Notes under the pieces: generated by a model
Database searches by the model: none
Seen by the model: the letters and a program-made list of their open reading frames with translations, nothing else
Told to the model about the DNA's origin: nothing
NCBI GenBank assembly: GCA_019113005.1
Contig: DXIE01000028.1
Span: forward strand, 97,747-161,746
Source of the DNA: Candidatus Butyricicoccus avistercoris
GTDB taxonomy: Bacteria > Bacillota > Clostridia > Oscillospirales > Butyricicoccaceae
Length of the DNA stretch: 64,000 bases
Direction of reading: 5' to 3'
Shown: piece after piece, positions 22,665 through 46,708 of the stretch
How the letters are laid out: each line of letters opens with the position of its first letter
Numbering within the stretch: position 1 is the first letter of the stretch
Program-made: the position numbers and the translations under genes

Positions 22665-22699
22665 AAATGCGTTTCCGATATTGGAAACGCATTTTTTTT
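22665..22699. terminator. Bidirectional terminator between phoH and the recombinase-spoVT fusion
   Basis: AAATGCGTTTCC / GGAAACGCATTT plus T8. Confidence 0.8.
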
Positions 22700-23144
22700 A
22701 CATAGTTACATGTTTTGATAAAAAGCTTGCAGCGGTTTGAGTAAGTTTTGATTCTACTTCGGTAGCGGTTTTTTCTTTATCTGACAAGAACGCTACACAA
22801 CCTGTTACATCACCATCAGATATAATAGGTGTTGCGACTACAACTGTATAATTATCCTGCTCAGACACATGAATATTTTCAGTTTCGCCAGTATACTGAT
22901 ACGCTTTACGGTTTTTCATAACTGTATCTATTGCATCTGAAACTGATTTTTCATAAACCTCTTTTTTAGCTGTGCCTGCCGCTGCAATAACTGAATCTCT
23001 ATCACAGATTACACATGACATACCTGATGTACGGCTAAGTGCATCTACAAGTTCATCTGCAAAACTGCCTAGTTCACCCATTGGCGAATATTTTTTAAAA
23101 ATTACTTCGCCATCTCTATCTGTATAGATTTCCAGCGGGTCACC
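22698..23144 (-). pseudogene. spoVT: spoVT 3' portion (C-terminal GAF-like domain), separated from its 5' end
   Basis: Reads GDPLEIYTDRDGEVIFKKYSPMGELGSFADELVDALSRTSGM... intact to stop. Confidence 0.9.
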
Positions 23145-24863
23145 GCTACTTATAACATTGGCATGGAAAACCTTGTCCATATGCTTGTTTGTTTGCTGAA
23201 CAATAGTATATTTTGTGATATCTTCCATGCCTAAATTAAAATTTACAGCTTTACCCACCAATCCGCAATTTAAAATCTGGTCAACATCGGATTTTAATTG
23301 TATTTCTAAACGGTTTTCATAAACCCAAATTTTTTCTATTATAAGCTGTAAATCTTTCTTTTCAAGATGTTCTTTCTTTAGCACCTCATCAAAAATATCT
23401 ATGGCTGTTTTTGCCATACGGTTTGTTTGAATAATAATATTTCGCTTGTCTGTTGCCATATTTATTTGAGACTGAATACCCTCAATTTTTTGCATGAGTT
23501 CGCTTTCCATCTCGTCATAGGTTTCTTCGAGAATTTGCTCCCTGTCTGGGTGTTTCATAATATCCCTTACACGCTGACGTTTTGTTGCTTTTAATTCCTC
23601 TTGCAAGTCTATTAAGATATCTTCAAGATTTGCCGCTGTCTGTTCGGTTTCAGCTATATCTTGTTCTTCGTTCTTTAAATCCTCATTAAGCCTTTCTATC
23701 ATACAGCTTGAGTTATCTCTAACCCTTTGAATATAAACCTTTATAAGCTCGTCTAGCTTGTCTACACGTATGTGATGGCTTGTACAGCCTGATAAGCCAC
23801 GCCTATGGTATGTACCACAAGTATAGGCTGGCTTTAAATCTCGCCTGCTCATAGCGAACATAGGACTACCACAATCACCACACACCATAATCCCCGAATA
23901 GACGTTGTCATTGATTTTTGTACCACGATAATTTGAGCGTGTGCGTTGCTCTCTAAGTGCTTTTGTAGTTGCAAATGTACGATAATCAATTATTGGCTGA
24001 TGATGATTTTCAATCACAATTTGTTCTATCTCATCACGCTTAATATCTTTACCATTGATTTTAGCACGGGTATATTTTCCCTGTCTAAGCGTACCAATAT
24101 AAAAATCATTATCCAAAATTCCTTGGACGGTTATAATAGCCCATGAGTTTCTGACAACTCGTTTACATTCTCCGCCTGCTGCTTCTTTACGCATTTTTTC
24201 TGACATTCTAGGTGTTGGTATACCTTGGTTTGTTAAATAATTTGCAATTTTTTTATAACCCCAACCCTCGTCATTATAAAGATGGAAAATCTGGCGGATA
24301 ATATCCGCTTCTGTTGGTACGACTTCAAATTGTTGTTGCTTATTGATAATATAGCCATATGGTGCGGCACAAATCCACTGTCCATCTTGTTGACGTCTAC
24401 GCACAACAGAACGCACCTTTTTACTTGTATCTGTGACAGGCATTTCATTGATAAGAAACTGGAACTGAATTTTAAGCCAATCATCATCATTTGGAAAGTC
24501 GATATTATCTCCTATGGAAATAATTCTTGCCCCAACATCACGCAAATCTTCAAGCTCTACGAGTCCCCTACTATTTCGACGAGAAAAACGAGAGAAATCT
24601 TTTATAATTAAAATATCTTTTTTATGGCTCATAAGCTCTTTTCTAAGTGCTTGATATCCCTCTCGTTGCTCAAATGTATAACCAGAACGGTCACGGTCTT
24701 CATAAAATGTTAGGCTTGAATTTGGAAAATATCTTTTCACATAATCTTCAATAATTGCCTTTTGGTTTTCAATGGAGGTATTATCTCTATCTAATTCTTC
24801 GTCCACTGAAATACGGCAATATCCAGCAATATCGAATTTTTCAGTCAATGTAATCAACTCCAT
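22698..24863 (-). CDS. Large serine recombinase fused in frame to the C-terminal 146 codons of SpoVT
   Basis: N-term YCRISVDEELDRDNTSIENQK...RDRSGYTFEQREGYQALR...IIKDFSRFSRRNSRG; recombinase and zinc-ribbon domains; C-term from 23144 down is GDPLEIYTDRDGEVIFKKYSPMGELG...LTQTAASFLSKHVTM (SpoVT). True start may be TTG near 24848. Confidence 0.93.
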   Translation of the reverse strand: MELITLTEKFDIAGYCRISVDEELDRDNTSIENQKAIIEDYVKRYFPNSSLTFYEDRDRSGYTFEQREGYQALRKELMSHKKDILIIKDFSRFSRRNSRGLVELEDLRDVGARIISIGDNIDFPNDDDWLKIQFQFLINEMPVTDTSKKVRSVVRRRQQDGQWICAAPYGYIINKQQQFEVVPTEADIIRQIFHLYNDEGWGYKKIANYLTNQGIPTPRMSEKMRKEAAGGECKRVVRNSWAIITVQGILDNDFYIGTLRQGKYTRAKINGKDIKRDEIEQIVIENHHQPIIDYRTFATTKALREQRTRSNYRGTKINDNVYSGIMVCGDCGSPMFAMSRRDLKPAYTCGTYHRRGLSGCTSHHIRVDKLDELIKVYIQRVRDNSSCMIERLNEDLKNEEQDIAETEQTAANLEDILIDLQEELKATKRQRVRDIMKHPDREQILEETYDEMESELMQKIEGIQSQINMATDKRNIIIQTNRMAKTAIDIFDEVLKKEHLEKKDLQLIIEKIWVYENRLEIQLKSDVDQILNCGLVGKAVNFNLGMEDITKYTIVQQTNKHMDKVFHANVISSGDPLEIYTDRDGEVIFKKYSPMGELGSFADELVDALSRTSGMSCVICDRDSVIAAAGTAKKEVYEKSVSDAIDTVMKNRKAYQYTGETENIHVSEQDNYTVVVATPIISDGDVTGCVAFLSDKEKTATEVESKLTQTAASFLSKHVTM

Positions 24864-24883: not shown

Positions 24884-24912
24884 ATTGTAACATAGGAGTA
24901 AAAATTTTTCAA
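24884..24912 (-). promoter_or_regulatory. Candidate sigma-A promoter for the recombinase
   Basis: Complement: TTGAAA - 17 bp - TACAAT. Confidence 0.5.
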
Positions 24913-24985: not shown

Positions 24986-26044
24986 TTAAATATTTTCATA
25001 CATTTTTGTGTAATAGTTTAGATAATCACCAGTTGTGATACGCTCTACCCATTCTACATTGTCAAGATACCAATTGATAGTTTCTTTTATACCTTGCTCA
25101 AATGTATAAACAGGTGCCCAACCTAATTCAGTTGTAATTTTTGTATTATCAATAGCATAACGACGGTCATGTCCAGGTCGGTCCTTTACATAAGTAATCA
25201 AACTTTCTGGTTTTCCTAGCTCTGCAAGGATTAGACGAACAATTTCAATATTAGCTTTTTCATTGTTACCACCAATATTATAAACCTCACCTATTTTACC
25301 TTTTTCTAATACTGTGGCAATCGCAGCACAATGATCAGATACATGAAGCCAGTCACGAATTTGCATACCGTCACCATATACAGGCAGTGCTTTATCATTT
25401 CTAGCATTATGAATCATGAGCGGAATCAGCTTTTCTGGGAACTGGTATGGTCCATAGTTATTTGAACAGCGTGTTATATTTACTGGCATACCATAAGTTT
25501 CGTGATATGCTCTTACAATTAAATCCGCACTTGCTTTTGATGCTGAATATGGACTGTTAGGTGATAGTGGTGTAGTTTCTGTAAACATACCTGTTTCACC
25601 AAGTGCTCCATATACTTCATCTGTGGATACTTGTAAGTATTTTACACCATCACGATAATCACAAGAATATTTATCATTAGGTTGAATTTTCCAATGACGC
25701 TTAGCAGCATCTAAAAGTGTTTGTGTACCAACAATATTGGTTGTTAAAAACAGTTCTGGTTCTTCAATACTACGGTCAACATGACTCTCTGCTGCAAAAT
25801 GCACAACAGTATCAAAATCATATTCACAAAACAGCTTTTCTACAAGTTCTTTGTCTCGTATATCGCCCTTTACAAACTTATAACGTTTATCGTTTTGTAC
25901 TTCAGTTAGATTTTCTAAATTGCCTGCATATGTTAAGGCGTCTAGATTTACTAAAAGTTCAATATTTTCCTTATTGCTTAGCATATACTGTACAAAATTT
26001 GAACCAATAAATCCTGCACCACCAGTCACCAATACTCTTTTCAT
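24986..26044 (-). CDS. rfbB: dTDP-glucose 4,6-dehydratase
   Basis: VTGGAGFIGSNFVQYML; VSTDEVYGALGETGMFTETTPLSPNSPYSASKA. Confidence 0.96.
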   Translation of the reverse strand: MKRVLVTGGAGFIGSNFVQYMLSNKENIELLVNLDALTYAGNLENLTEVQNDKRYKFVKGDIRDKELVEKLFCEYDFDTVVHFAAESHVDRSIEEPELFLTTNIVGTQTLLDAAKRHWKIQPNDKYSCDYRDGVKYLQVSTDEVYGALGETGMFTETTPLSPNSPYSASKASADLIVRAYHETYGMPVNITRCSNNYGPYQFPEKLIPLMIHNARNDKALPVYGDGMQIRDWLHVSDHCAAIATVLEKGKIGEVYNIGGNNEKANIEIVRLILAELGKPESLITYVKDRPGHDRRYAIDNTKITTELGWAPVYTFEQGIKETINWYLDNVEWVERITTGDYLNYYTKMYENI

Positions 26045-26916
26045 TAAATTTCCTCCTCAGCCACTGCTTTTAAATATACACCATATTCTGTTTTCATCAG
26101 TGGTTCTGCAAGTTTTAACAGCTGCTCTTTTGTAATAAATCCTTTGCGATATGCAATCTCTTCAATACATGATACATAAAGTCCTTGACGCTTCTGAATA
26201 ATACTAACAAACTGTGATGCTTCTTGTAGCCCCTCATAAGTGCCAGTATCAAGCCACGCCATACCACGATAGAATTTTACTACATTTAACTGACCACGCT
26301 TCAAATATTCGTTGTTAACAGCTGTAATTTCTAGCTCACCACGAGCAGATGGTTTTATATTCTTTGCAATCTCTACCACTTGATTATCATAGAAATATAG
26401 ACCCGGAACAGCATAATTTGACTTTGGTTTTTCTGGTTTTTCTTCCAACGAGATAACTTTTCCATCTTTATCAAATTCTACCACACCAAAATCTTTTGGA
26501 TTATAGACAGGATATCCAAAAATAACTGCCCCCTCTTCTAGTGCCGCTGCCTCAGCGAGGGTAGCTGAGAAATATGCACCATAGAAAATATTATCACCTA
26601 GCACTAATGCAACCTTGTCATTACCAATAAATTTCTCTCCAATAATAAATGCTTCTGCAAGGCCATTTGGTGCCTCTTGTACTGCATAAGAAAATTCCAT
26701 GCCATATTGTTTTCCATCACCCAAAATTTCCTTAAATACAGAAACATCACGAGGTGTAGATATAATCAAAACTTCACGAATACCAGCAAGCATAAGCGTA
26801 GATAACGGATAATAAATCATTGGCTTATCATAGATAGGCAGTGCCTGCTTTGATACACCTCTTGTAATCGGATAAAGTCGAGTACCTGAACCACCAGCAA
26901 GAATAATTCCTTTCAT
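26044..26916 (-). CDS. rfbA: Glucose-1-phosphate thymidylyltransferase
   Basis: [46 protein letters not shown]. Confidence 0.97.
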
Positions 26917-26926
26917 ATCATTTTCC

Positions 26927-27316
26927 TCATTTCTTTCTGAAGATAAACAATTTACTAAAAATATAATTTAATCCAATAATAATGACGTTAACAATACATT
27001 TTGCTATCATATCATTGACATTAAACCAAATTAAAAGCATCATACCACCATTATCAATCAAAATTGTTCCAATTCGCATTCCAATAAACTCACTAAAGTT
27101 TTTCCATGTACATTTTACACGAAAAACAAAAATACTATTTGTGAAATATGCATATAGAACTGATAACAAAAATGCCACTGTATTAGACACTAATTTGCCC
27201 CATACATATGTTGATAAAAGTTTATACAATACTATATTAACAATAACTGTTGAGACACCACAAACAAGATATCTAAATGTTTCTATGAGAAATTCACGAT
27301 TTAGAAATTTTCTCAT
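26927..27316 (-). CDS. GtrA family protein
   Basis: [21 protein letters not shown]; 4 TM. Confidence 0.85.
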
Positions 27317-28500
27317 TATAACTTCTCCAAATAATCCTTTACTTGGTCAAAATATGAAATCGCATGTTCAATGCAAATATCCATATTATAATACTTAAAC
27401 TCCGCTAAGCGTCCACATAAAAATAAACTTTTGTATTTCTTAACATCATTCAAATATTTTTGGTATAATTTATTACTTTCCTCTGTCATAACTGGATAAT
27501 ATGGAACATTTCCAATTTCAGCTTCTGGGTTATACTGTAAAGGATATTCTGTAGCAACAATACTGCCAACTACATTAGTTGTGTCTTTCATTATTTTATG
27601 GTATTCTGTTTTTCTTGTATAGCCATCAGCCTGAGGATAAGAAATAATTTCACTTGGTAATACACTTGTGCTATCAGAATAATATTCATACTTAATATCA
27701 AGCGAGCGATATGGGAGCAAACCATACTTTCTTCCAAACAACTCATCAATTGCTCCTGTATATATGAGACAGTCTACTTTCTCACCTTCAAAGAAAATCG
27801 AGCCTGTTTCTTCTTCCATACTCAAAAGAGGCAGTGCATCAGTATTAAGTCTAACCTCTATATTTGGATGATTAAGCATATTTTCAAAAAGCTTGGTAAA
27901 TCCTTCTGTTGGTAAATACTGAAAATCCTTGTTTAAGTAACGCTCATCGTAATTCATTGCCATAGGAACTCGTTCCAAAACATATTTATCAATCTGTTCT
28001 GGCTGAATACCCCACATTTTTGATGTGTAAGTACGATATGCCTTTTCAAATAATAAGGTTCCATAATCACTAATGTCTTTGTCATCATTATCGACTAGCT
28101 CTAAAATAGGTACTCGGTCACGCCCATAAAATGCCTTTCTCAGCTTTGCTAATAGAGATTCTGACTTTTCTGCACCAATAAGTTGCTGTACAGATAAAAA
28201 ATTAAATGGCAGCTGAATATACTGGTCATCAATATAACTCAGTAATTTTGTATTATGTTGATGTAGTTTTCCATACTGCATTAAAAAGCGAATTACATTA
28301 TAATGATTAGTATTAAGAAAATGTGGTCCATACCTTTGTACCAAAATTCCATGTTCATCTATCTCATCGTAAGCATTTCCGCCAATGTGGTTACGTCTTT
28401 CTACAATAATAACATTATGGTTTAGCTCTTCTGCAATTTTTCTGGCTAGAATGCTTCCAGAAAAGCCCGCACCTACAATTATAATCTTATTCATTTGCAT
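27316..28500 (-). CDS. glf: UDP-galactopyranose mutase
   Basis: IIVGAGFSGSILARKIAEELNHNVIIVERRNHIGGNAYDEIDEHGILVQRYGPHFLNTN. Confidence 0.95.
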   Translation of the reverse strand: MQMNKIIIVGAGFSGSILARKIAEELNHNVIIVERRNHIGGNAYDEIDEHGILVQRYGPHFLNTNHYNVIRFLMQYGKLHQHNTKLLSYIDDQYIQLPFNFLSVQQLIGAEKSESLLAKLRKAFYGRDRVPILELVDNDDKDISDYGTLLFEKAYRTYTSKMWGIQPEQIDKYVLERVPMAMNYDERYLNKDFQYLPTEGFTKLFENMLNHPNIEVRLNTDALPLLSMEEETGSIFFEGEKVDCLIYTGAIDELFGRKYGLLPYRSLDIKYEYYSDSTSVLPSEIISYPQADGYTRKTEYHKIMKDTTNVVGSIVATEYPLQYNPEAEIGNVPYYPVMTEESNKLYQKYLNDVKKYKSLFLCGRLAEFKYYNMDICIEHAISYFDQVKDYLEKL

Positions 28501-29410
28501 TCTCCTGTGATTTTAACCAATGAGCTGTTTTCAAAATACTTTCTCTTAAATCTGCTGTACATTCAAATCCAGTATCATTATATAATGCATCTAAATCTAT
28601 TTTGCTGTAATCCATATTAGACGTATCCTTATACTGACCAAACAATAAATTTATGCTTGGATTTACGATATCTCTTACCTCACAAAATAATTCTTTAAAA
28701 CGTTTCAATTTCCTATGTCCTACATAATACGACTTTTGATTATGTCCTTTTTCACCAATAGCTTGAAAGGCCTTTGCAACATCTTCTACATATATTAAGT
28801 CATAATAATTTTCTCCATCAATAAGTTTAGGCTCAATATTTTCCATAAGTTGTTTTAATATTATATTAGCAAGCATTAAAGAATGATTATTTTCACCATA
28901 TGCCATGCATACTAAACCTGCACTATAATCTATACCCAACTGGAATGCTAATGTTCGACACATCAATTCTGCTGAAAGTTTTGCAGTTGCATAAATACAT
29001 GTATATCTCGGCTGAAATGTATCATTTCCAATAAAATTAAGTATTTCAAATTCATTATATGTACCAGCGAACACAAACTTCTTGCACTTTATTAAATGTG
29101 CTTGCTCTACTGCCATACAAGCAAACTTAGTATTATCTAGCTGTAATTTATAAGACCGAAAAGCATCTCCAAAAACTCCATTCCATGCAAAATGATAAAA
29201 AACATCATAAGAAACATCTGGCAATATTTTATGCAAATTATCATAATCTTTGAAACCAGCTTTAATACCTGTGAAATTTGGAAATTTCTCAAATCTATTT
29301 ATATTTCCTGAACTAGATACACCATAAACATGATATCCATCATTCAGCAATTTTTGTGCTAATGCTCCACCTAAAAAACCACCAACGCCTGTAATAATGA
29401 CATTTTTCAC
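28487..29410 (-). CDS. NAD-dependent epimerase/dehydratase (putative dTDP-4-keto-sugar reductase)
   Basis: ITGVGGFLGGALAQKLL; YATAKLSAELM. Confidence 0.8.
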   Translation of the reverse strand: MKNVIITGVGGFLGGALAQKLLNDGYHVYGVSSSGNINRFEKFPNFTGIKAGFKDYDNLHKILPDVSYDVFYHFAWNGVFGDAFRSYKLQLDNTKFACMAVEQAHLIKCKKFVFAGTYNEFEILNFIGNDTFQPRYTCIYATAKLSAELMCRTLAFQLGIDYSAGLVCMAYGENNHSLMLANIILKQLMENIEPKLIDGENYYDLIYVEDVAKAFQAIGEKGHNQKSYYVGHRKLKRFKELFCEVRDIVNPSINLLFGQYKDTSNMDYSKIDLDALYNDTGFECTADLRESILKTAHWLKSQENANE

Positions 29411-29427
29411 TAATTATTCACCACCAT

Positions 29428-29979
29428 TCAAAAGTTTACATCACTATCTTTTAAAAGTGGTGCTACACTGTCCTTTGGAGAAACAATAATTTCGTCATCT
29501 CTCATTCCCCATGTAATTGCCAATTCAGGATCATTCCATGCTATTGCACGATCATATTTAGGTTCATAAAATTTATTAACTTTGTATTGTCCCTCTGTAT
29601 AATCTTCTAGTGAAATACAGCAATGTCCAAATCCTTCAGGAATATATATCTGTTTTCTATTTTCTGCACTTAAAATAACTGATACCCATTTTTTATATGT
29701 TGGGGAGTTCTTTCTCAAGTCAACCGCAACATCAATCATACTTCCCTTTGTACAGCGAACAAGTTTCGCTTGAGCATATGGATTATTTTGAAAATGAATC
29801 CCTCGCACGGTACCTCTTTTTAACGAAAAAAAGTGATTATCTTGTATAAATTCATCGTTAATACCATGTTCTTCCAAAGTTCGTTTTGAATAACTCTCAC
29901 AATAATAGCCTCTGTAATCTTCAAAATAAGTAGGTAAAATCAGTTTTACCTCTGGAATTACAAGTTGTTGAACAATCAT
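29428..29979 (-). CDS. rfbC: dTDP-4-dehydrorhamnose 3,5-epimerase family
   Basis: DDRGYYCES-like start; FIQDNHFFSLKRGTVRGIHFQ; VDLRKNSPTYKKWVSVILSAENRKQIYIPEGFGHC. Confidence 0.92.
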   Translation of the reverse strand: MIVQQLVIPEVKLILPTYFEDYRGYYCESYSKRTLEEHGINDEFIQDNHFFSLKRGTVRGIHFQNNPYAQAKLVRCTKGSMIDVAVDLRKNSPTYKKWVSVILSAENRKQIYIPEGFGHCCISLEDYTEGQYKVNKFYEPKYDRAIAWNDPELAITWGMRDDEIIVSPKDSVAPLLKDSDVNF

Positions 29980-30923
29980 TTATATATCACTCCATTCTGT
30001 ATATTAGATACTAAACTAGCCTGACTTTGAATTGCTATAGTAGTCGTATTCCAGACAAACTCCTCAATCGAATGTAAAAACTGATCATCAGCATCCAGTT
30101 CCATCTTACTTTCATCGAAAGATGTGCGCAAAATTAAGGTTGGTTTTATTCCATCACCAGCTGTAAAGATACGAGGTGCAATAAGTGTTGCCTTGCTTCC
30201 CCACACTTCAAGCTGACATTGGTAGGCATTGTCCATGCCAAAAGAAATCTGTGCTACCTCGCCCACGTCATTTTCCATGACTGCACTGCCATACAAATCA
30301 ACCTCAAAACCATTAGGCTGAACTAATTTGGAATGTACTACCTTTGCAGTATTACCAAGTAGCTCTAAAGCAAGACGAACTGGATATCCACCACAATCTA
30401 GCAGTGCACCACCACCTAGTTCTTTATTATAACGAAAATCTCCTTGCCCACGCATTGGAAAACCAAACGACATTTTGTAAAGACGAATATCACCCAAAGA
30501 ACCATCTGCAATCATTTCTTTAATTTTTGCAAGTTGACTATGGTACAGGAACATATAATTTTCATGTACTTTTAGTCCTTTTTGATCTGGCAATTCTAAC
30601 AGTTGTTTTGTATCGCTTTGCTTGGTTGTGAATGGCTTTTCCATAAAGAGATGCTTTCCTGCATTTAAAACCTTTTTACCCCACTCAAAATGCAAAGCTG
30701 GTGGCAATGGTACATAAACAGCATCTATGCTTTCATCTGCAAGTAGTGCGTCATAAGATTCATACACCTTACCGCCAAAATTTTCTTGAAATTTCAGTCC
30801 CTTTTCTGGTGTACGAGATGCGACACCCGCATATGTAATCTGTGGACACTTACTAAGTGCTGGCAGAAATCTGCGAAATGCTATATCAGCTGTTCCTAAA
30901 ATTCCTAACTTCATGTTAATCAT
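29976..30923 (-). CDS. Gfo/Idh/MocA family oxidoreductase (putative 3-ketoreductase)
   Basis: LGILGTADIAFRRFLPAL; VYVPLPPALHFEWGKKVLNAGKHLFMEKPF. Confidence 0.9.
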   Translation of the reverse strand: MINMKLGILGTADIAFRRFLPALSKCPQITYAGVASRTPEKGLKFQENFGGKVYESYDALLADESIDAVYVPLPPALHFEWGKKVLNAGKHLFMEKPFTTKQSDTKQLLELPDQKGLKVHENYMFLYHSQLAKIKEMIADGSLGDIRLYKMSFGFPMRGQGDFRYNKELGGGALLDCGGYPVRLALELLGNTAKVVHSKLVQPNGFEVDLYGSAVMENDVGEVAQISFGMDNAYQCQLEVWGSKATLIAPRIFTAGDGIKPTLILRTSFDESKMELDADDQFLHSIEEFVWNTTTIAIQSQASLVSNIQNGVIYK

Positions 30924-32314
30924 GCCTCCAAAAGAGAAAGTAAATTTCGAAGTTGAATATTTAATACATTATTAAACTGAACCATTTCATTCAGTGTATA
31001 AAAATCAAGTAAAAAATATCCATCTGGAAGTTGTGGAAGTTCATCAATATCTATCTTTAACAAAATATTTCTATTTTGCTCATGATAAAATCGTCCACCC
31101 TCCTCTGAAAGTAAATGGTCAAATATAATATTTGTTTTTTGTTCCAGTCTTTCCATAAAAAATCTGTCAATGATAGTTTCTTTATGCTCTGGCATTTCCA
31201 CTGCTTCTATCTGAACAGTAGGACCAAGTTCCACTCCATCAAAACAACCAATCTCTGGCATTGCTTTAACAACAAATTTGAGAATGCCATTTTCTTCACA
31301 ACAAATCAATCCAAATGTTGCAATTCCGATAGCTTCAAATAGAGGTTGCGTCCACTGTTTAACCTCTCTTCCTTCGATAGCTATATCGCAGAAAATTACT
31401 TGATAAGGATATGGTGTCTTACTTTTGATTTTATCATCTTCCATTGTCCAGCCGTCCAATTTATGTAATGGAACTAACTCTCCATTAGTATCATTGAACA
31501 TTTTATAATTGTTAATATACTGATATACCTGTGGGAATTGATTATTTTTCAAATAGAAAATTGAACGAAAAAGAGCTTGATTTGAAAAACATTCAGCTAA
31601 TTCTTGTCGCTTAATATCATTCATCTGTAATTTATAAAACGGAATACATGATAATACTGTTCTAGTGTCCATATTCACAAGATTATCCACTCGCATAAGT
31701 GCTTTAATCTGTCCGAGTGTCATCCATTTATGTGATGGCAAAACTTGAATATCATCTTCAACACGAATAAGAATATTACGATTTCTTTTTTTGTAAAATC
31801 TAGATGACTGTTCAGATTGTATTTGGTCTACTACAATTTCATACTTTGAAGCGTTTTCAAAATATTCAAGATAAGGTGGTTTTGCTCCGCCATGTTTTTG
31901 TGTAAAATTACTTTTTGTTGCTTGTATAGTAGGAGATAACTGAATTTTATTGATATTGCCTGGCTCAATTTTAGCTTGCATCAAAAAATGCATTACACCT
32001 TCGATTTCCTTGCAAATGATACCAAGAAATCCAATCTCCTGTTGCAATATAATCGGCTGATTAATAACAGTATCACTATCAATCTGTTTTTGAAATCCTG
32101 AGATTGAGAAAAAACTGTTATTTTTATTATGTATTGTGCCAGTTTGTTCATCATAAAACCAGAAAGTACTTTCAGAAAGTTTATTTTTTTTAATATCTAC
32201 TTCTACAGTTTGATTTCTGTCTTTCACCCATTCAAGAATATCCTCTGCTTTATTGACAACTCCCTCGTTTACTGTCCAGCTTTTTGCAATGGAATACAAA
32301 GTATCCTGTTGCAT
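30920..32314 (-). CDS. NDP-hexose 2,3-dehydratase family protein
   Basis: Duplicated domain; FLMQAKIEPGNINKIQLSPTIQATKSNFTQKHGGAKPPYLEYF and FVVKAMPEIGCFDGVELGPTVQ. Confidence 0.85.
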   Translation of the reverse strand: MQQDTLYSIAKSWTVNEGVVNKAEDILEWVKDRNQTVEVDIKKNKLSESTFWFYDEQTGTIHNKNNSFFSISGFQKQIDSDTVINQPIILQQEIGFLGIICKEIEGVMHFLMQAKIEPGNINKIQLSPTIQATKSNFTQKHGGAKPPYLEYFENASKYEIVVDQIQSEQSSRFYKKRNRNILIRVEDDIQVLPSHKWMTLGQIKALMRVDNLVNMDTRTVLSCIPFYKLQMNDIKRQELAECFSNQALFRSIFYLKNNQFPQVYQYINNYKMFNDTNGELVPLHKLDGWTMEDDKIKSKTPYPYQVIFCDIAIEGREVKQWTQPLFEAIGIATFGLICCEENGILKFVVKAMPEIGCFDGVELGPTVQIEAVEMPEHKETIIDRFFMERLEQKTNIIFDHLLSEEGGRFYHEQNRNILLKIDIDELPQLPDGYFLLDFYTLNEMVQFNNVLNIQLRNLLSLLEA

Positions 32315-32316
32315 AC

Positions 32317-33273
32317 CTACTTCACTTCCTCTTCTATTGGTTCAAAGTTTATTTTTTCTCCAATTACAACAAGTGGTCGTTTCATAGAGCGTGTATTTAT
32401 GCTCAGCACATACTCACCTAAAATACCCATGAAGAACAATTGTACAGCACCAATAAAGAAAATACCAATCAATGTTGAAGCTGTTCCTACTGGATAGGTA
32501 TCCCAGTTCAATAATTTATTAATAAATATAAAGATGGCCAAACAAGCACTAATAATTCCTAATACAACACCCATAAAAGTAGCAACTCTCATCAAAATTT
32601 TTGTATAAGATGTAATACCAAGCATAGCTACATCATAATATTTCATAAAGTTAAATCCAGATTTTCCACGATTGCTTTCTGCTTGTTCATACTGTACAAT
32701 TTTAATTCCCATACCAAATTCAGCAACTAAACCTTTAAGATATGGGTTTGGGTCATCAATTCGTTTCATTACATCAATAAATGACTTGTCATATAACCCA
32801 AAACCATTAAAATGTTGAATTTGATTTGAGTCCGATAATTTTCCAATTAAATTATAGTATATAGTTCTTAGAGTATACATAAGTTTTGATTCATTACTTT
32901 TGCGTTTTTGTCCAACAATTACCTTATGACCATTTTCCCACTCGCGTACGAAAACTGGCAACATTTCTGGTGGGTCTTGTAAATCACCAAATAGCATAAA
33001 AGTGGCATCTCCACTGCCATATTGCATAGTTGCAAAAACATTTCTATTAAATCCAAAATTACGAGCATTAAATACTGCTTTAACTTTTTTATCTTTTTGA
33101 CACAATTTACGAATTTCTTCTCGTGTATTATCTGGTGAATAATCATCTACGAAAATAATCTCATAATCATAATATGGTAGTTCTTCTTGAAATACTTTTA
33201 TAAGACGCTCGTACATTTTACAAACACTTTTTTCCTCTGACCAACAAGGAATGGTTACACTAATTTTTTTCAT
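32317..33273 (-). CDS. Glycosyltransferase family 2 (polyprenyl-phosphate sugar synthase-like)
   Basis: VTIPCWSEEKSV...IIFVDDYSPDNT...FGDLQDPPEMLP; two C-terminal TMs. Confidence 0.9.
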   Translation of the reverse strand: MKKISVTIPCWSEEKSVCKMYERLIKVFQEELPYYDYEIIFVDDYSPDNTREEIRKLCQKDKKVKAVFNARNFGFNRNVFATMQYGSGDATFMLFGDLQDPPEMLPVFVREWENGHKVIVGQKRKSNESKLMYTLRTIYYNLIGKLSDSNQIQHFNGFGLYDKSFIDVMKRIDDPNPYLKGLVAEFGMGIKIVQYEQAESNRGKSGFNFMKYYDVAMLGITSYTKILMRVATFMGVVLGIISACLAIFIFINKLLNWDTYPVGTASTLIGIFFIGAVQLFFMGILGEYVLSINTRSMKRPLVVIGEKINFEPIEEEVK

Positions 33274-33313
33274 TTTATCAAATTCCCTTTATCCGTTCAT
33301 GCATATTAATAAT

Positions 33314-33904
33314 TCATTTCAACTTTTTAGGATATATACTACTTTGATCTGTAACAGGAAAAATCTTTTCTATTAATCTAAACAATTTAATTAATCTTTC
33401 TCCTTTATCTGTTATCCTATAATTTTCTCCAATTTTCTCAATATTACCAATGCTAACTTGCTCATCAATTCGTTTTTGAGTCGCACCATTGTCTACATAA
33501 CCAATTACAAACTGATCTCTAATTTCATCATAAGAATATATATTATTATAATCTGTAAGATAAGCTAGAGAATATACCGTATATGATCTTTCTATAACCA
33601 TAGGACCTAATGAGAAAAATAGAGCCATGAATAATGAAGATATTCCTATGCATAATACACTTGTAGAGAATGTAAAATTAAATATTTTATTTGTTTTTAT
33701 GCATATAATAAAAGCAACAATAATTAAAATTACCATTGTTAAAAATAGCATTATATATAAACGGTAAATATATGTGCTAACTGATATAAACATGTTTAAA
33801 TGTAACATTATTGATACTGAAATTGAAATTGCCAAGCATATCATTATGCATAATAATATTTCAATTCCTATTTTCTTGAATTCATTCTTCATATTTGACT
33901 CCAT
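33314..33904 (-). CDS. Hypothetical membrane protein
   Basis: 196 aa, 4 predicted TM, abuts upstream gene. Confidence 0.6.
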   Translation of the reverse strand: MESNMKNEFKKIGIEILLCIMICLAISISVSIMLHLNMFISVSTYIYRLYIMLFLTMVILIIVAFIICIKTNKIFNFTFSTSVLCIGISSLFMALFFSLGPMVIERSYTVYSLAYLTDYNNIYSYDEIRDQFVIGYVDNGATQKRIDEQVSIGNIEKIGENYRITDKGERLIKLFRLIEKIFPVTDQSSIYPKKLK

Positions 33905-33911
33905 TTTTACG

Positions 33912-35783
33912 TTATTTTATTGTAATTATATTTGAAATGACACTATAATTCATACTTTGTTTTGTTTTATTTAATATATTATTTATTACCATAGAAGTAT
34001 TTTTATTAAAACAATTTTCATCTGTTCTTAATAGGTATATATAATCATCTTCATCTTCTATTGTACCTTCAATATATAATTTTATAGTGTAATCCTTATT
34101 TTTTTCTAGTCTTGCATCTGAAGTATAAAATATATATTCTGTATTATCTTGTAAATCATTAGCCTTCACTTCATAATCGTTTATAACATTGCCACTGCTA
34201 TTATCAACTATATCCATGCATAATTTTAAATCTTCTGGATATGTGCGTCCCCATGTAACTGGTCTAATAGATAAACTTAACATCCTATTACTATTCGAAT
34301 AATATGACGTTTCAAATATAGTATCGTTTGTAATAGGCTGTGCTAACATAGAATTTCCATATATTTCATTAGAAGTAATATCTATTCTTGAAATAATCAA
34401 GAAGAAAACACAAAAAACAATCATTGGTATACTAACATATATCTTAGTCAATATCTTATGATTTTCCACTATTTGAGTTACATTTTCATATTTGTTTTTT
34501 ATAAACCATAATAAAATAAATCCTACTACAAAAATAAGACTTCCTAGTAGCATTTGCACTATTGAAACCATATCATTGCCTGATTCTAAAGTTCTACTTA
34601 ACAACTCTACAATAGATGGAATATCATTATCTATAAATTTATTAACTAATCTAGAAGTATATCTTGGTGCTAAAAAATTCTGATCAAAGAATATTGCACC
34701 CAGTAATCTTGACATCTCAAAAATTGTCAGCATAATTACAAATCCATTTATTTGTGATTTATGCCTATTCTTTTTTGACAATGCAGCTATTACCAAAAAT
34801 GGCAAACATGTAACATATCTATAAAAATGCACCCATGATAATGTGCACATTAGTGTAGAAGCAATAGCTAAAAAATACAATAATGCATCATTTTTTTCTT
34901 CTTGTGTTCTATAGTTTATAAAATATGCTATTACATATATTATTACTAAAGCAATCAAATATATTGATATTTGGGAAATACCAGTTTGTATTACAGTTCT
35001 ATTTAGAAACCAATCTAAATAATTATCATGAGATTCCCAAATTATAGGCATACTTTTACTAATTATAGTATATGGTAAAATGATTATAAAACAATCTACT
35101 ATTATTCTCCATATTCTTTTCTCCATGAACAAAATGATAATTAGACCAAGTAACATCATAAAAGGTGCAAAGAATGTAGTAATCGTTAGCCACAATATAC
35201 ATTGTTTGTTTTTCCCATGGAAATAATATCTTAATGCAAGTAATATCGTAAATATATATTGCATTTCATCTTGCATAGAATATCCAGTACATATCCAGAC
35301 TGTACTCGCACCCCAAACCAATATAGCTGCTAATTTACCATTTTTTTCACTATTGGTAAGTAATTTTACAATATGATAACATTGCATACCTACCAATATT
35401 GCACCAATATACAAAAACAACTTTGTCCACATAAGACATAATGGTGTTAATACATCTGATATTTTTGGAAATGTATGGGTTAACCATATCGGAAAATTCC
35501 ATATTGACCATGGCAAAAAGATAAGTGCTCCCCCACCCATATTTAAACCTGCGTGTGGAGCTTGTCGCATATTTTCAATAAGAACTTGTGGAAGTTCTAA
35601 TATCCTACCTGAAAATAGTGCATCCCATATTTCTATTGAATATGCCATAAAAGATACACCATCTATATACTCAAAACCGATTAAACATATTAAACCAACA
35701 ACTGCAATTATACAGCTCTCTATTTTATATTCTTTAACAATATTAAAAAATAATTTAAACTCATTTTTTATCTTTTCTTTCAC
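33912..35783 (-). CDS. Large polytopic membrane protein (possible GT-C-like)
   Basis: 623 aa, ~11 hydrophobic segments, co-directional in glycan operon. Confidence 0.6.
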   Translation of the reverse strand: MKEKIKNEFKLFFNIVKEYKIESCIIAVVGLICLIGFEYIDGVSFMAYSIEIWDALFSGRILELPQVLIENMRQAPHAGLNMGGGALIFLPWSIWNFPIWLTHTFPKISDVLTPLCLMWTKLFLYIGAILVGMQCYHIVKLLTNSEKNGKLAAILVWGASTVWICTGYSMQDEMQYIFTILLALRYYFHGKNKQCILWLTITTFFAPFMMLLGLIIILFMEKRIWRIIVDCFIIILPYTIISKSMPIIWESHDNYLDWFLNRTVIQTGISQISIYLIALVIIYVIAYFINYRTQEEKNDALLYFLAIASTLMCTLSWVHFYRYVTCLPFLVIAALSKKNRHKSQINGFVIMLTIFEMSRLLGAIFFDQNFLAPRYTSRLVNKFIDNDIPSIVELLSRTLESGNDMVSIVQMLLGSLIFVVGFILLWFIKNKYENVTQIVENHKILTKIYVSIPMIVFCVFFLIISRIDITSNEIYGNSMLAQPITNDTIFETSYYSNSNRMLSLSIRPVTWGRTYPEDLKLCMDIVDNSSGNVINDYEVKANDLQDNTEYIFYTSDARLEKNKDYTIKLYIEGTIEDEDDYIYLLRTDENCFNKNTSMVINNILNKTKQSMNYSVISNIITIK

Positions 35784-36922
35784 TTAACTAGCCCCCAGTT
35801 AATTACTGTCTCCAAAATATTATTTACGCTAACATTCAAAACACATGGCACAGCACCATTTCTAACACAGTTTGGCTTACTTAAACCGCATGGTATACAA
35901 TTCATGCTATCTTTTTTCGCAATAGCCGCAATACTATTTTTAGGCATGCGTGAATTAGGATAAAATCTACCATATTCCCAGCAACCACATATAACAATAG
36001 TAGGTATTCCGCAAGCAATTGAAAAGTGAGCACTTCCAGAATCATTTGCTAATACAAGCCTACTTTTACTTAATAATTCTTTAAGCGAACTCAAGTCTGT
36101 TTTACCACAAATATTTTTTGCTCTAACTGTTAACATATTTAACAATTCTTCGCCAATTTTATATTCATTTTTAGTACCGCAAATCATAACATCATATTTA
36201 TTATCTTTACATATATTATTTAAAACGTATGCAAATCTATCTAATGGCCATTGTTTTGATTTACTTCCTCCAGCTGCTGGGAAAACTACAATGTACTCTT
36301 TTTTCACATGATTACTATTTCGTGAAAATTGAAAAATACTTAAGGATTGGTTTAAATTAAACTCTTTTGTTAGATACTGTTCATATCTTCTTAACTCATA
36401 TATAGCATCTACATAGATTAATTTTTCTATTTTTTTATCTATAATTTTTTTTAATGAAACAAGAGAACATGCTTGTAATGTATCTGGTAGTATACGACAT
36501 TTAGATGATATAGCCAATGCATATATATCACTTAGTATATGCCTTTCTGCTGGTGCTACTATAACTTTTTGTGCTTTAATACTCTCAAGTTTTTTTATAT
36601 TAAATATTCTATGCCGAAATTTTGTAGAAATAGCAATTACATTTTTAAAATATCCAGTTAATTCTGCAAATTCATCTATACCTGTATTGGCTCGACAAAC
36701 CAAAACTATTGATTTTCCATTCGCGCTCAACTCTTTTGCGACTGAGCAAAAAGTTATAAAATCTCCCAATGAAGCCATACATACAACAGCAACATCAAAA
36801 TCGAATTTATCTATTTCTTTTTTGTTGATTGAGTATAATATTATACGATAAACTACATAGCTAATACAAATTTTGAATTTACATAAAAGATTTTTTATTG
36901 TATAACTTACTGTTTTAACCAC
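35780..36922 (-). CDS. Glycosyltransferase family 9 (heptosyltransferase-like)
   Basis: VFPAAGGSKSKQWPLDRFAYVL; SRLVLANDSGSAHFSIACGIPTIVICGCWEYGRFYP. Confidence 0.85.
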   Translation of the reverse strand: MVKTVSYTIKNLLCKFKICISYVVYRIILYSINKKEIDKFDFDVAVVCMASLGDFITFCSVAKELSANGKSIVLVCRANTGIDEFAELTGYFKNVIAISTKFRHRIFNIKKLESIKAQKVIVAPAERHILSDIYALAISSKCRILPDTLQACSLVSLKKIIDKKIEKLIYVDAIYELRRYEQYLTKEFNLNQSLSIFQFSRNSNHVKKEYIVVFPAAGGSKSKQWPLDRFAYVLNNICKDNKYDVMICGTKNEYKIGEELLNMLTVRAKNICGKTDLSSLKELLSKSRLVLANDSGSAHFSIACGIPTIVICGCWEYGRFYPNSRMPKNSIAAIAKKDSMNCIPCGLSKPNCVRNGAVPCVLNVSVNNILETVINWGLVK

Positions 36923-38526
36923 ACAATAACACCATTTTCTTCTATTATACGCAACAATTCTTTTTTAGCATAAAGTTTGTTATTTTCTATAATATCATCA
37001 TTTTTACAAATAATAGTGTCAAAATTTGAAGATATTCTAGCAATATTTAAAGATGTTCCATACTCCACTATAACGTCCATTTTTTTAAGTTCTGTCCTTA
37101 ATGACACAATATTATCATCTAAGTCTAGTGGAATAAAAACTTCTACTTTTTTGCCTGTTTTTTTCAATTCTTTTATTTTTGATATAATATTAGTATCTAA
37201 ATTAGAAATAATACATATTTTCTTAGAATTACTGATTACATTATGTTCACATTCATTAGATAACTTGTTTATATCCAATTCATTATATTGTTTTATATTA
37301 TCCCAATTTTTAGAAACATGTAATTTTTCTATAATACTTTTTATACCATCAAGCAACATATCAGGAGTTATTGCTTTCATACATACAGGTACTTGCATAC
37401 CACGAGAGCAGACTTTACTCCATTGTGGAGTTGTTGCCATACAATCACTGCAAGCTGGTGATACAATATTTATATTTCTTTCATATCCATAATAATAAAC
37501 AGGAGTTGGACCAAATGATACAACACATGGTGTAGACATTTGTGCTGACATATGAACAAGCCCACCTTCACTATCTACATGACAAATAGAATTTTTCAGT
37601 ATTACTGCGGTTTCTCCCAATTTACAGTTAAATGCATAACGGTCAGCTCCAGTAATTTGCAAACTATTTTTTACACCAGTCTGCACAACCAATATTTCTG
37701 GATATGTTTGTTTAAATTTATTGATTAATTTTTCTATTGTTTCAAGTGGTAACACTTTTGTCTGTGCTGTACCACCCATATTTTTATCTGCACCATAATT
37801 AACGGTAATATATAATACATCTTTTATATTATATCTGTCCAATACAGATAAATCATCTGGATTTATTACTATATTAGAATATTTTTCAGACATATCAATA
37901 GCACCATTACAAGATAGCTTGGACCACTTATTTTCACCCAAAAATTTAGCTCGTCTAAGAATAACTGATTCTCTTTCATGCTGCTTCTCAATATTTATTT
38001 TGTTTGACTGTGAATATTCCACTATTTTACAAGCTGTTACATAAAAATCTGGTGACTTTTCACGTATATCACCCAAATTACAATGTTTTAATGTAAGACC
38101 ATGGTCTAGATGCACAGCCAAATCATATTCTTTAAAAGATGTATTGAATAAACAGTTATGTGCATCATGAATTATAGTAACATTTTTTCTTTGACCGTAA
38201 ACATAGTTAGCAAATTCAATCCTATCAGTAAACAAATCAACATTACATTCACAAATAGAACTAATTTCATCTACAAATCGCAAATAAACAATATAGTCTC
38301 CCAAAGCACCACCTAAATATATAGATATGCTTAATTTATTATCTGGCTGCAAAATACCCTGTAATTTTGCACGTTGATGATATCTTTCATTAAAATAACA
38401 TTCATGACATAGATTATCATATTCACCACTTATCTCTTTTTCAACCATATTCTGCATAATTTCTGCTTTTTTAAATACATATAAGGTTGAACGTATTTTG
38501 CTAAAAAATTTACTTAATATACTCAT
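36907..38526 (-). CDS. Glycosyltransferase family 9-like protein
   Basis: GGALGDYIVYLRFVDEIS; CHVDSEGGLVHMSAQMSTPCVVSFGPTPVYYYGYERNINIVSPACSDC. Confidence 0.75.
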   Translation of the reverse strand: MSILSKFFSKIRSTLYVFKKAEIMQNMVEKEISGEYDNLCHECYFNERYHQRAKLQGILQPDNKLSISIYLGGALGDYIVYLRFVDEISSICECNVDLFTDRIEFANYVYGQRKNVTIIHDAHNCLFNTSFKEYDLAVHLDHGLTLKHCNLGDIREKSPDFYVTACKIVEYSQSNKINIEKQHERESVILRRAKFLGENKWSKLSCNGAIDMSEKYSNIVINPDDLSVLDRYNIKDVLYITVNYGADKNMGGTAQTKVLPLETIEKLINKFKQTYPEILVVQTGVKNSLQITGADRYAFNCKLGETAVILKNSICHVDSEGGLVHMSAQMSTPCVVSFGPTPVYYYGYERNINIVSPACSDCMATTPQWSKVCSRGMQVPVCMKAITPDMLLDGIKSIIEKLHVSKNWDNIKQYNELDINKLSNECEHNVISNSKKICIISNLDTNIISKIKELKKTGKKVEVFIPLDLDDNIVSLRTELKKMDVIVEYGTSLNIARISSNFDTIICKNDDIIENNKLYAKKELLRIIEENGVIVWLKQ

Positions 38527-38533
38527 ATTATTT

Positions 38534-39013
38534 CTAATTTAATCCTTTTAATTTAATTCTAATATTTCCTGTCTTATCCCATTTATTTGCTATATCGTTT
38601 TCTTTTTCTTCAACACTAACTAATCTTTGTATTATTTCTGATGTTTTTCCATCTAATTTTTCCTCTACATGCATAAGTCTTTCTATCATCTCTGGTGCAC
38701 TACCATCTAATTTTTCCTCTACATGTATAAGTCTTTCCACTATCTCTGGTACACTACCATCTAATTTTTCCTCTACATGTATAAGCCTTTCTATTATCTC
38801 TGGTACACTACCATCTAATTTTTCCTCTACATGTATAAGCCTTTCCACTATCTCTGGTACACTACCATCTAATCTTTCCTCTACATGTACTAATCTTTCC
38901 TCTACACTTAATAATCTGTTTTTTATTTCTAGTAATAATTCAAAATTTTGCTTTTCTAAATTTTCAATATTACTAATTTTTGATAAATAATTTCTTATTT
39001 TTTTTAAAATCAT
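38534..39013 (-). CDS. Coiled-coil protein with tandem 18-aa repeats
   Basis: Repeated (I/V)ERLIHVEEKLDGSVPE(I/M); 54-bp DNA period. Confidence 0.8.
   Translation of the reverse strand: MILKKIRNYLSKISNIENLEKQNFELLLEIKNRLLSVEERLVHVEERLDGSVPEIVERLIHVEEKLDGSVPEIIERLIHVEEKLDGSVPEIVERLIHVEEKLDGSAPEMIERLMHVEEKLDGKTSEIIQRLVSVEEKENDIANKWDKTGNIRIKLKGLN
38649..38900 (-). repeat. 54-bp tandem repeat within CDS, ~4.5 copies
   Basis: ccatctaatttttcctctacatgtataagtctttccactatctctggtacacta repeated. Confidence 0.9.
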
Positions 39014-39024
39014 TTTACAATCCT

Positions 39025-39828
39025 CTAATGTTTATCTAATATTGCAATTAAATTTTTATTATCATTTAATAAGCTATGTATATCAATTTCAATTTCATTT
39101 GCCTTAAAATTTATATTTGATTCATTTGATAAATCTAATATAATTTCCTTTGTCTCTTCACAAGAATCACAATCATTGAATTTTTGAGAATCGAAAATTA
39201 ATCTTCTAACATCTATCTCATAATCTTTACCATACAAATAATAAAGTACACTTGCTCTGTGACCCCCATCTCTAATTACATTTGAATCATTAAATAATAT
39301 AATTCGTTCTTCATTAGATGGATATCCATATTGTTTTATATAATCAAGATTATAAGATACTCTTTCTGAATTTGTTTGAATATTAGGTAAACCACTACAA
39401 TAATAATTTATCTGCTCTCTTCTATCATTTTCAAAACTATTTCCTTCAAGTGCTTTTACAACTCTAGAATTTTCTAAGTCTTTTATACATGGTTTTCCAT
39501 TTTCATCTTGTGAAATTACTTTAAGCTCACCAAGTTTTATCCTATCTTCCTTGATTTCTTTCAAATAAGGTAATAGAGCTGCTAAACCAACAAGATTTAC
39601 TTTATCGAATTTATCACAAGAAAATCCTTCAACTGATATTAATTTTTCTATTATGGTTTCCATTGATTTAGCCAAATTAGAAAATTCATTTATTGTTAAG
39701 TCTATTCTAAAATCCTTATAATGAATGTGGATAGACTCACCTATGTTATCTTCAATATCAAATCTATACGGAAAATCTTCTAAAGTTTCTGTTAAAGACA
39801 CTAATTTTAAAACCGCAGGATTACTCAT
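39025..39828 (-). CDS. Hypothetical protein, ParB/sulfiredoxin-like C-terminal region
   Basis: RIILFNDSNVIRDGGHRASVLYYLYGKDYEIDVRRL; N-terminus resembles the 40510-40728 product. Confidence 0.55.
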   Translation of the reverse strand: MSNPAVLKLVSLTETLEDFPYRFDIEDNIGESIHIHYKDFRIDLTINEFSNLAKSMETIIEKLISVEGFSCDKFDKVNLVGLAALLPYLKEIKEDRIKLGELKVISQDENGKPCIKDLENSRVVKALEGNSFENDRREQINYYCSGLPNIQTNSERVSYNLDYIKQYGYPSNEERIILFNDSNVIRDGGHRASVLYYLYGKDYEIDVRRLIFDSQKFNDCDSCEETKEIILDLSNESNINFKANEIEIDIHSLLNDNKNLIAILDKH

Positions 39829-39840
39829 ATAATACTCCTA

Positions 39841-40497
39841 TCAATAGTTAGAAAATGTAATATAATCTTTGAAAATTTCATCATATCTGTTTTGTTGTAA
39901 CATATAAATAAGACGCTCAGTATATTTAAAAAACACTTTGCTTAATTTATATTTTACACTCTCAGATTTCAAATAAAATTTCTTTGATTCTATATCACTT
40001 ATATATTCTTGTTTAAAATATTGCTTATCAAAAATACTTCTTATAATCATATACACAAATATATCTTCATCTGACATAATCCACCAACCATTTTTTTCAT
40101 CAAATACTTTGTTTGACCACACTGATTGATTTATTGTCTCATCTAAAGGAATCCACATCTTAGGTGTTAAACTTTTACATGATAGTTTTTCAAAAACATC
40201 TATATATAAATTGAAATTTGTGTTTATATTTTGCCAAAATTGATATTCTTTCAATCCATATCCAAAGCTCCAACCATTCTTTCTCCCATTAGGTGGAACT
40301 ATTTTTTTATATCCTATTGAAACCATACAATTTTCAAAATCATATTGAGATTTAAAATGAACCAATATATCTATATCTTTTCCATCTTTCAATTTATATG
40401 GTAACTCATTTGCTATATTTTTTATTAAAACATAATTAATATTTGCATTATTTAATTCTGAAAAAAACTGTTTTATAAGGTTTGCATCAATATACAT
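39841..40497 (-). CDS. Nucleotidyltransferase-like protein
   Basis: NINYVLIKNIANELPYKLKDGKDIDILVHFKS. Confidence 0.5.
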   Translation of the reverse strand: MYIDANLIKQFFSELNNANINYVLIKNIANELPYKLKDGKDIDILVHFKSQYDFENCMVSIGYKKIVPPNGRKNGWSFGYGLKEYQFWQNINTNFNLYIDVFEKLSCKSLTPKMWIPLDETINQSVWSNKVFDEKNGWWIMSDEDIFVYMIIRSIFDKQYFKQEYISDIESKKFYLKSESVKYKLSKVFFKYTERLIYMLQQNRYDEIFKDYITFSNY

Positions 40498-40509
40498 AAC
40501 ATATACACT

Positions 40510-40728
40510 CTACTTATCTTTTTCTTTAATTATATCCAACTGTTTTTTAGCTAACACAATAGCAGATGCTATTTGCAAAAATTCATGCTCTGGCATAGCT
40601 AAACGCATACTTTTATTTTGAATATGTATCTCACGTTCTTCTGTAGAGTTGACCCCATGGTTCAACTCTACATCAAACTTTCCTCCTGCAAACTCTATTG
40701 TATCTAAAACTTTTATTATTTCTCCCAT
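40510..40728 (-). CDS. Small conserved-looking protein
   Basis: 72 aa; domain shared with N-terminus of 39025-39828. Confidence 0.55.
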   Translation of the reverse strand: MGEIIKVLDTIEFAGGKFDVELNHGVNSTEEREIHIQNKSMRLAMPEHEFLQIASAIVLAKKQLDIIKEKDK

Positions 40729-40741
40729 TATATATCACCAA

Positions 40742-41710: not shown

Positions 41711-41734
41711 ACTGTTAGCCCTCCTCTATATTAT

Positions 41735-42307
41735 TTAGTCATTTAAAATTTGTTTTGCTGCATCTAAAATATTTTTTGCTTTACAACCATAATTATTTGG
41801 TAATTCTTCCTCTTTACCGTGACCAGTTGCAAGCAAATAACCATTTTTCATATTGGCATTTAAAGCAAATTCAACATCTATTTTTTTATCACCAATCATA
41901 TAACTCTCTGATAAGTCTATCTGATGTTCATTTTTAGCCTTTATTGCCATTCCGATATTTGGTTTTCTACATTCGCAATCTATGTTGTATCCTTCAACTA
42001 CTCCTTTAGGGTGATGTGGACAATAATATATTGCATCAATACAAGCTCCATCTTGTTCCAGTAATTGTTTTACCCTATTGTTTACAATTACTGCATCTTG
42101 TTCTGAAAAATATCCTCTCGCTACACCTGATTGATTGGTTACCATAATAATATAGAAATTATTTTGAGATAGTTTTTTTATAGCTTCTGACGCACCTTCT
42201 ATTAAAACTACATCATCAGGATTACTTAAATAATTTTTTTCTTCTATTATTGTTCCATCTCTGTCCAAAAATACAGCTTTTTTTCTCATATTATTTATTT
42301 GTTGCAA
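41735..42307 (-). CDS. gmhB: D-glycero-beta-D-manno-heptose 1,7-bisphosphate 7-phosphatase
   Basis: AVFLDRDGTIIEEKNYL; VTNQSGVARGYFSE; CPHHPKG...CECRKPNIGM. Confidence 0.93.
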   Translation of the reverse strand: MQQINNMRKKAVFLDRDGTIIEEKNYLSNPDDVVLIEGASEAIKKLSQNNFYIIMVTNQSGVARGYFSEQDAVIVNNRVKQLLEQDGACIDAIYYCPHHPKGVVEGYNIDCECRKPNIGMAIKAKNEHQIDLSESYMIGDKKIDVEFALNANMKNGYLLATGHGKEEELPNNYGCKAKNILDAAKQILND

Positions 42308-43766: not shown

Positions 43767-43783
43767 CTATCAATTAACAATAA

Positions 43784-44443: not shown

Positions 44444-44445
44444 TT

Positions 44446-45189: not shown

Positions 45190-45209
45190 TGTTTGGTAAC
45201 CTCATAATA

Positions 45210-46670: not shown

Positions 46671-46708
46671 ATTTTGTTCCTTTTCAAATAAATTTTACTT
46701 ATTTTCTT

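Follow-up and report, generated by a model that had tools for sequence, protein, structure and literature searches.

In the genome of Candidatus Butyricicoccus avistercoris a large serine recombinase (LSR) gene runs in frame into the 3' part of spoVT, and the 5' part of this gene lies 29.4 kb away. The arrangement raises the question whether the recombinase exchanges its own C-terminus whenever the element that encodes it changes between an integrated and a circular state. We examined the window (the whole stretch of 64,000 nt that was analysed) together with related recombinases in GTDB genomes; coordinates are collected in Table 1.

Structure of the fusion gene and its junctions

The ORF at 22698-24863 on the minus strand translates without a stop, also between the two domains where the earlier note had named one as decisive, into a protein of 721 aa. 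Codons 1-575 make up the LSR and the other 146 correspond to SpoVT residues 33-178 in the same frame. A Pfam search assigned the regions Resolvase (12-163), Recombinase (183-307), Zn_ribbon_recom (322-378) and SpoVT_C (597-719, E=1e-36), with the resolvase catalytic, recombinase and zinc-ribbon domains all above the Pfam cut-off. The NCBIfam recombinase models matched by the LSR were CcrB, CcrC and XisF, all far under cut-off. The distant spoVT 5' fragment encodes MKATGIVRRIDDLGRVVIPKEIRRTMRIREGD, followed in frame by a 26-aa tail, RSQIMLVWWKQFYMSLEHFLQRIGVK, and a stop codon.

GGTGACC is the sole sequence common to both junctions. Exact joins in silico at this site give a 29.4-kb circle encoding a recombinase of 601 aa and, on the chromosome, a SpoVT of 178 aa with restored reading frame. 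An uninterrupted SpoVT, likewise of 178 aa, is found in a congener (G004), where 156 of 178 residues are identical to the rejoined protein and the upstream neighbours are the same. Junctions, frames and exact joins bear out the proposal of the earlier note that the crossover lies inside the recombinase ORF and that integration exchanges C-termini, including a circle form of about 601 aa whose 26-aa tail stands in frame after the spoVT 5' fragment. The length it had given for the fusion was also correct, but its start of the SpoVT part at residue 31 has to be moved, as residues 31-32 (GD) belong to the shared core and SpoVT-only sequence begins at residue 33. In silico, attP is thus contained in a coding gene whose product has a state-dependent C-terminus, with 601 aa from the circle and 721 aa from the integrated copy. 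The locus combines a split sporulation gene with an encoded LSR, as is characteristic of sporulation gene-intervening elements. The hairpin terminator claimed after the tail is supported by a strong predicted fold, but was not listed by a strict terminator scan.

Table 1. Features of the element and of the split spoVT gene in the window.
Feature	Position	Strand	Basis
SpoVT residues 33-178 and stop, C-terminus of the integrated recombinase	22698..23138	-	Pfam SpoVT_C; PDB 2w1t match; modelled as folded domain
LSR residues 1-575, common to both forms; last ~13 codons form one attP arm	23139..24863	-	Pfam domains; frozen synonymous codons before core
Core GGTGAC, recombinase/SpoVT_C junction (named attL here)	23139..23144	-	Shared GGTGACC
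Sigma-A-like promoter before recombinase, TTGAAA-17-TACAAT	24884..24912	-	Consensus match alone (10/12); region has 3 sites, 1.8 expected
Cargo: deoxysugar and polysaccharide genes, ABC exporter	24986..47509	-	Sampled ORFs searched with Pfam and NCBIfam
RepA_N replication initiator of the element	47943..48713	+	Pfam PF06970
IstB/DnaC-like ATPase, adjoins RepA_N	48710..49522	+	Pfam PF01695
78-aa protein, characteristic companion of the family's recombinases; candidate directionality factor	49573..49809	-	tblastn 47% identity; HMM E=2e-26
Hairpin with U-rich end directly 3' of tail stop; likely terminator	52355..52428	-	RNA fold -26.2 kcal/mol, z=-5.2
26-aa native recombinase tail and stop, in the integrated state joined to SpoVT 1-32; codons 1 to ~10 form the other attP arm	52427..52507	-	Conservation across 34 elements; codons 11-24 under coding constraint
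spoVT codons 1-32, AbrB-type DNA-binding part	52508..52603	-	Translation; match to intact spoVT of G004
Core GGTGAC, spoVT/tail junction (named attR here)	52508..52513	-	Shared GGTGACC
Sigma-G-like spoVT promoter, GCATA-17-CATAATA	52633..52661	-	2 matches in window vs 0.27 expected

Occurrence in related genomes

Scanning of GTDB genomes with the recombinase part yielded 315 relatives, of which 80, mostly from Oscillospirales, were kept. Together with family-level hits these gave 86 fused LSR-SpoVT_C frames, a few of them from near-identical genomes. The break falls at the same GD/GE codon pair in all 86 frames, and SpoVT_C is of full length (136-153 aa) in 85, the remaining one being cut by a contig end. 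Within the genus, G001 and G006 carry the same fusion at 96-97% identity and the G005 copy is cut at the contig end; these congeners and the 86 frames exclude chance. Several genomes hold both halves on one contig and on the same strand, 12-36 kb apart (12 kb for the element of G015, ~15 kb in the single-contig genome G427, and 17, 22 and 36 kb elsewhere), which together with the 86 frames rules out an assembly artefact or a lone accident. At order level 27 of 396 genomes gave matches, always either recombinase-to-core or SpoVT_N plus tail, and a contiguous recombinase with tail was found in none of the 396. Many of the genomes compared are MAGs, and sporulation ability was gauged by SpoIVA alone, which is present in the genome of the window and in 69 of 87 genomes of its family. 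These comparisons point to an apparently undescribed, widespread class of spoVT intervening elements.

Homologous recombinases align through to the core within this family, as had been anticipated; the expectation failed only in a more distant subfamily (G002 and G003, 48% identity), whose members of 531 and 544 aa end before the core. Four related recombinases, L093, L140 (G014), L253 (G302) and L255 (G244), are followed by other sequences after the core, in L255 by a frame that enters a different protein for ~80 aa, and these cases apparently represent off-target integrations elsewhere. Longer recombinases of other kinds (L013, L017, L021) were rejected as host fusions, as their ends look native coiled-coil or basic by eye.

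In G002 (L040, L048) and G003 (L041, L049) the split in spoVT falls on the same codon as in the window. The halves are ~240 kb apart on opposite strands in G002, where rejoining would take a large inversion, and on different contigs in G003. The unfused recombinase lies near the spoVT 3' half in the same gene order, and no intact spoVT copy was found. Their spoVT 5' half shows 11 synonymous and no other changes, and the 3' half a dN/dS of 0.02. The 3.3-Mb genome of G002 gave 33 matches to the 721-aa query, mostly other serine recombinases, several of them adjacent near C2:743885-750500.

Attachment sites

Synonymous codon usage varies little over the final ~13 codons of the recombinase before the core and is relaxed past it. 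The attP sites reconstructed for 37 elements form an inverted repeat centred exactly on the core GA, with a symmetry of 72% compared to 25% (SD 10%) at other centres, whereas the symmetry of attB reaches 41%; an attP symmetric about its central dinucleotide and a differing attB are what is expected of a serine integrase. In the attP of the window alone the palindrome is not significant and becomes so only in the family alignment. Because the two attP arms are situated at opposite ends of each element, the symmetry is independent evidence that these ends were once joined as attP. In length this agrees with the attP half-site of a Listeria phage integrase, which measures 25 bp (PMC3783163). Our search pattern, which fits 34 of 36 reconstructed sites at ≤2 mismatches, detected no circle or joined attP at this threshold in 47 element-bearing genomes (attR alone was matched, at 3 mismatches), and no intact attP was found in viral contigs. 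The 601-aa form is therefore a predicted one.

The detached 26-aa tail

A search with the spoVT 5' fragment plus tail gave a match in 32 of 40 other genomes with this recombinase, nearly all of them extending through the tail. The 34 distinct tails roughly share the pattern PSQMTLxxWExFCFxMLDLAKRxGW. Changes in codons 11-24 are mostly third-position (identity 0.64/0.72/0.48 by codon position), with a pN/pS of 0.35 compared to 1.1-1.3 in the other frames, while codons 1-10 lack the third-position pattern, as expected of a DNA site. By these measures the far half of the tail shows coding constraint and the near half, toward the core, constraint at the DNA level; judged from this pattern the tail is part of a gene and not debris. 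The tail first read from the window alone has hence proved to be a real, conserved peptide. In a model of the 58-aa peptide of SpoVT 1-32 and tail, made without alignment, residues 30-54 form one helix over the tail (tail pLDDT 72-90, overall mean 66.4). Run against other reading frames in the collected set, the tail profile found no recombinase ending with the tail. It is not required by every such enzyme, because the distant 531-544-aa relatives of G002 and G003 lack it. Within the region upstream of the recombinase, at L088:6176, lies a further peptide that resembles the tail (KTTQWEVLCFAMDVLAKRNGWE) and may be left over from the end of another element.

Companion protein and element content

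In 52 of 66 loci the gene of a companion protein (~78-95 aa, MEINVRDDxKIVEIWLT...) precedes that of the recombinase and shares its strand, usually lying just upstream. The relatives tested had no Pfam or NCBIfam match. The 72-aa CD1234 (PMC5025042) offers the analogy on which we consider it a candidate directionality factor. No relaxase or mobilization genes were found among the window ORFs scanned, which contain RepA_N and the DnaC-like gene instead. The elements of relatives carry a relaxase, NikA/MobC and an AAA_25 ATPase, so that the family looks mobilizable rather than phage. A prophage was rejected, as the scanned ORFs include no phage genes. Relatives are encoded by just 5 viral contigs, and those extending past the core run into SpoVT.

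Within the cargo, an NDP-hexose 2,3-dehydratase gene at 30920-32314 (minus strand) and its neighbours belong to a deoxysugar cluster, and 54-bp tandem repeats occupy 38549-38904 of a 159-aa ORF (38534-39013, minus strand). In G004 rml-type genes lie directly 3' of the intact spoVT.

Movement, selection and the spoVT promoter

The histories of recombinase and SpoVT_C are incongruent: in the pair L125/L131 the recombinases are 97% identical and the SpoVT_C parts 57%, and in L054/L133 the values are 87% and 42%. Resident spoVT genes were consequently entered repeatedly. Within the genus, dS is 0.23-0.26 for the recombinase and 0.47-0.57 for SpoVT_C in the same pairs, and neighbouring host genes of G000 and G001 (the latter a congener) range from 0.42 to 0.62; the lower recombinase value is suggestive of transfer. 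Recombinase and SpoVT_C have a dN/dS of 0.03-0.14 and the spoVT 5' half shows synonymous changes only, values that place the recombinase and the two parts of spoVT under purifying selection, although these rates do not date the integrations and the selection may partly predate them.

A Sigma-G-like promoter scoring at least 10/12 precedes 37 of 41 split spoVT genes, compared to 9% of random-stretch controls; on this prediction the spoVT 5' half keeps a forespore-type promoter. Little or no enrichment of such promoters was noted before the recombinase or the companion gene.

Proposed mechanism and alternative readings

We consider it likely that the locus is an LSR element that has its attP within its recombinase gene, at the 3' end, and its attB in spoVT, and in which the recombinase form is locked to the state of the element, the 601-aa form integrating and the 721-aa form excising. 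attB would be the region around spoVT codons 31-33, and crossover at GGTGAC would join recombinase residues 1-575 to SpoVT 33-178 and SpoVT 1-32 to the 26-aa tail. From the gene structures of the two states, a cell with the integrated copy only would make only the fusion, and the circle only the tailed form. Integration would then fall to the 601-aa enzyme and excision to the fusion, except where a second copy acts in trans; a directionality factor would presumably assist excision, and the conserved companion of 78-95 aa is our candidate for it. Excision would restore the 178-aa SpoVT behind its forespore-type promoter, and the element would thereby also be a sporulation-gene intervening element. 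Sequence comparison has shown the gene structures of both states, the conserved tail, the attP symmetry, repeated integration and purifying selection; the proposal further supposes that both isoforms are made and active and that excision takes place during sporulation. Speaking against it are the lack of a circle in the 47 element-bearing genomes and the viral contigs, the distant relatives of 531-544 aa that do without the tail, the chance that selection on the tail acts in the SpoVT_N-tail peptide, and a target gene of the forespore, where excision would be inherited.

In an alternative reading, to which we give slightly less than an even chance, attP overlaps the recombinase 3' end by chance, the fused SpoVT_C has no role in recombination, both forms work alike, and SpoVT_C is kept only since spoVT is needed after excision. 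An AlphaFold model of the 721-aa fusion (29 sequences, mean pLDDT 73.7, pTM 0.40, at which relative domain positions are unreliable) has long helices at 386-437 and 439-496 in the LSR C-terminal region, a low-confidence, poorly ordered linker at ~535-590 spanning the junction, and a confident SpoVT_C domain from ~590 with pLDDT mostly 82-92. The linker between enzyme and SpoVT_C accords with a passive overlap. So does the host-derived SpoVT_C itself, which differs widely from host to host among similar recombinases; such variation speaks against a specific contact. Restoration of spoVT accounts for selection on SpoVT_C equally well. Set against this, the tail lost on integration is conserved as protein, so that exchanging the C-terminus probably matters to the enzyme, provided that it is not the SpoVT_N-tail peptide on which this selection acts.

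A more far-reaching suggestion, a stronger version of the one in the earlier note, is that the GAF-like domain of SpoVT either responds to a signal or brings the integrated enzyme into oligomers and in this way gates excision or sets direction, which we hold to be unlikely. SpoVT is tetrameric, with a GAF domain for which ligand binding is possible (PMC5061766). Fusing an RDF to the C-terminus of an integrase can alter its direction, as engineered proteins show (PMC5737554), and the model of our fusion has SpoVT_C as a well-folded domain; an effect of SpoVT_C on the enzyme through oligomerisation or a ligand is possible. The host-to-host variation of the domain and the flexible linker, however, do not favour a specific contact. 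Equally doubtful is the complete form of this idea, a self-switching recombinase whose 601-aa form integrates and whose host GAF domain, gained on integration, responds to the state of sporulation by gating or driving excision.

Selection on the tail could also concern the 58-aa SpoVT_N-tail peptide of the integrated state, e.g. as a truncated DNA-binding regulator, and not the recombinase. The tail follows SpoVT 1-32 in frame behind the conserved forespore-type promoter. But in the circle this frame is the continuation of the recombinase, the tail DNA is an attP arm, and the tail is absent wherever spoVT is uninterrupted, which leaves this explanation quite improbable. That the fusion is inactive and the element a fixed insertion that ended spoVT function would fit the assemblies, which show integrated copies only, but is highly improbable given a dN/dS of 0.03-0.05 for integrated recombinase genes, purifying selection on both spoVT parts, and movement of elements between distant hosts, for which excision or copying out is needed.

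Relation to known systems and significance

The skin element of C. difficile (LSR CD1231, directionality factor CD1234, target sigK) likewise splits a sporulation gene that is restored on excision, with a small separate protein giving direction, for which we have a candidate only; in contrast to spoVT its target is a mother-cell gene, and an exchange of the recombinase C-terminus is not described for it (PMC5025042). The gin element in gerE of B. cereus is similar in size (28.6 kb), a non-phage LSR element in a sporulation gene with inverted-repeat att sites, but has three recombinase genes and belongs to the mother-cell side programme, and the accessible part of the report describes no recombinase-host fusion (PMC5595907). 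The SPbeta prophage in spsM of B. subtilis also interrupts a sporulation gene by way of an LSR, and the gene is rejoined during sporulation, but it is an active prophage, again with no recombinase-host fusion in the accessible part of the source (PMC4191935). In the integration-dependent immunity of mycobacteriophage BPs, attP lies inside a coding gene and integration changes the C-terminus of a protein and also its behaviour; there a repressor is shortened by 33 residues (PMC4557955), whereas in our element the altered protein is the recombinase, to which a host domain is added. Engineered integrase-RDF fusions, in which a C-terminal fusion alters serine integrase directionality (PMC5737554), are man-made with an RDF as partner, unlike the host transcription factor domain switched by integration in the present case. 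In a literature search outside which most subscription journals lay, we found no paper combining spoVT with 'serine recombinase' and no description of a C-terminus exchange between recombinase and host. Known are LSR elements splitting sporulation genes and an attP in a coding gene; new is the state-dependent exchange of the recombinase C-terminus.

If our preferred reading of two state-locked isoforms is true, the element is a natural case of one serine integrase in which integration and excision are carried out by two isoforms chosen by the position of the element. With matched natural pairs from many species, it becomes testable how C-terminal extensions and fused domains set the direction of serine integrases. 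Should the GAF domain indeed act as a sensor, a domain of a host regulator would serve as sensor or directionality module of the very enzyme that split its gene. In Bacillus SpoVT belongs to the forespore (PMC5061766), and excision in this compartment, unlike in the mother-cell precedents, would therefore be inherited and pass to the spore.
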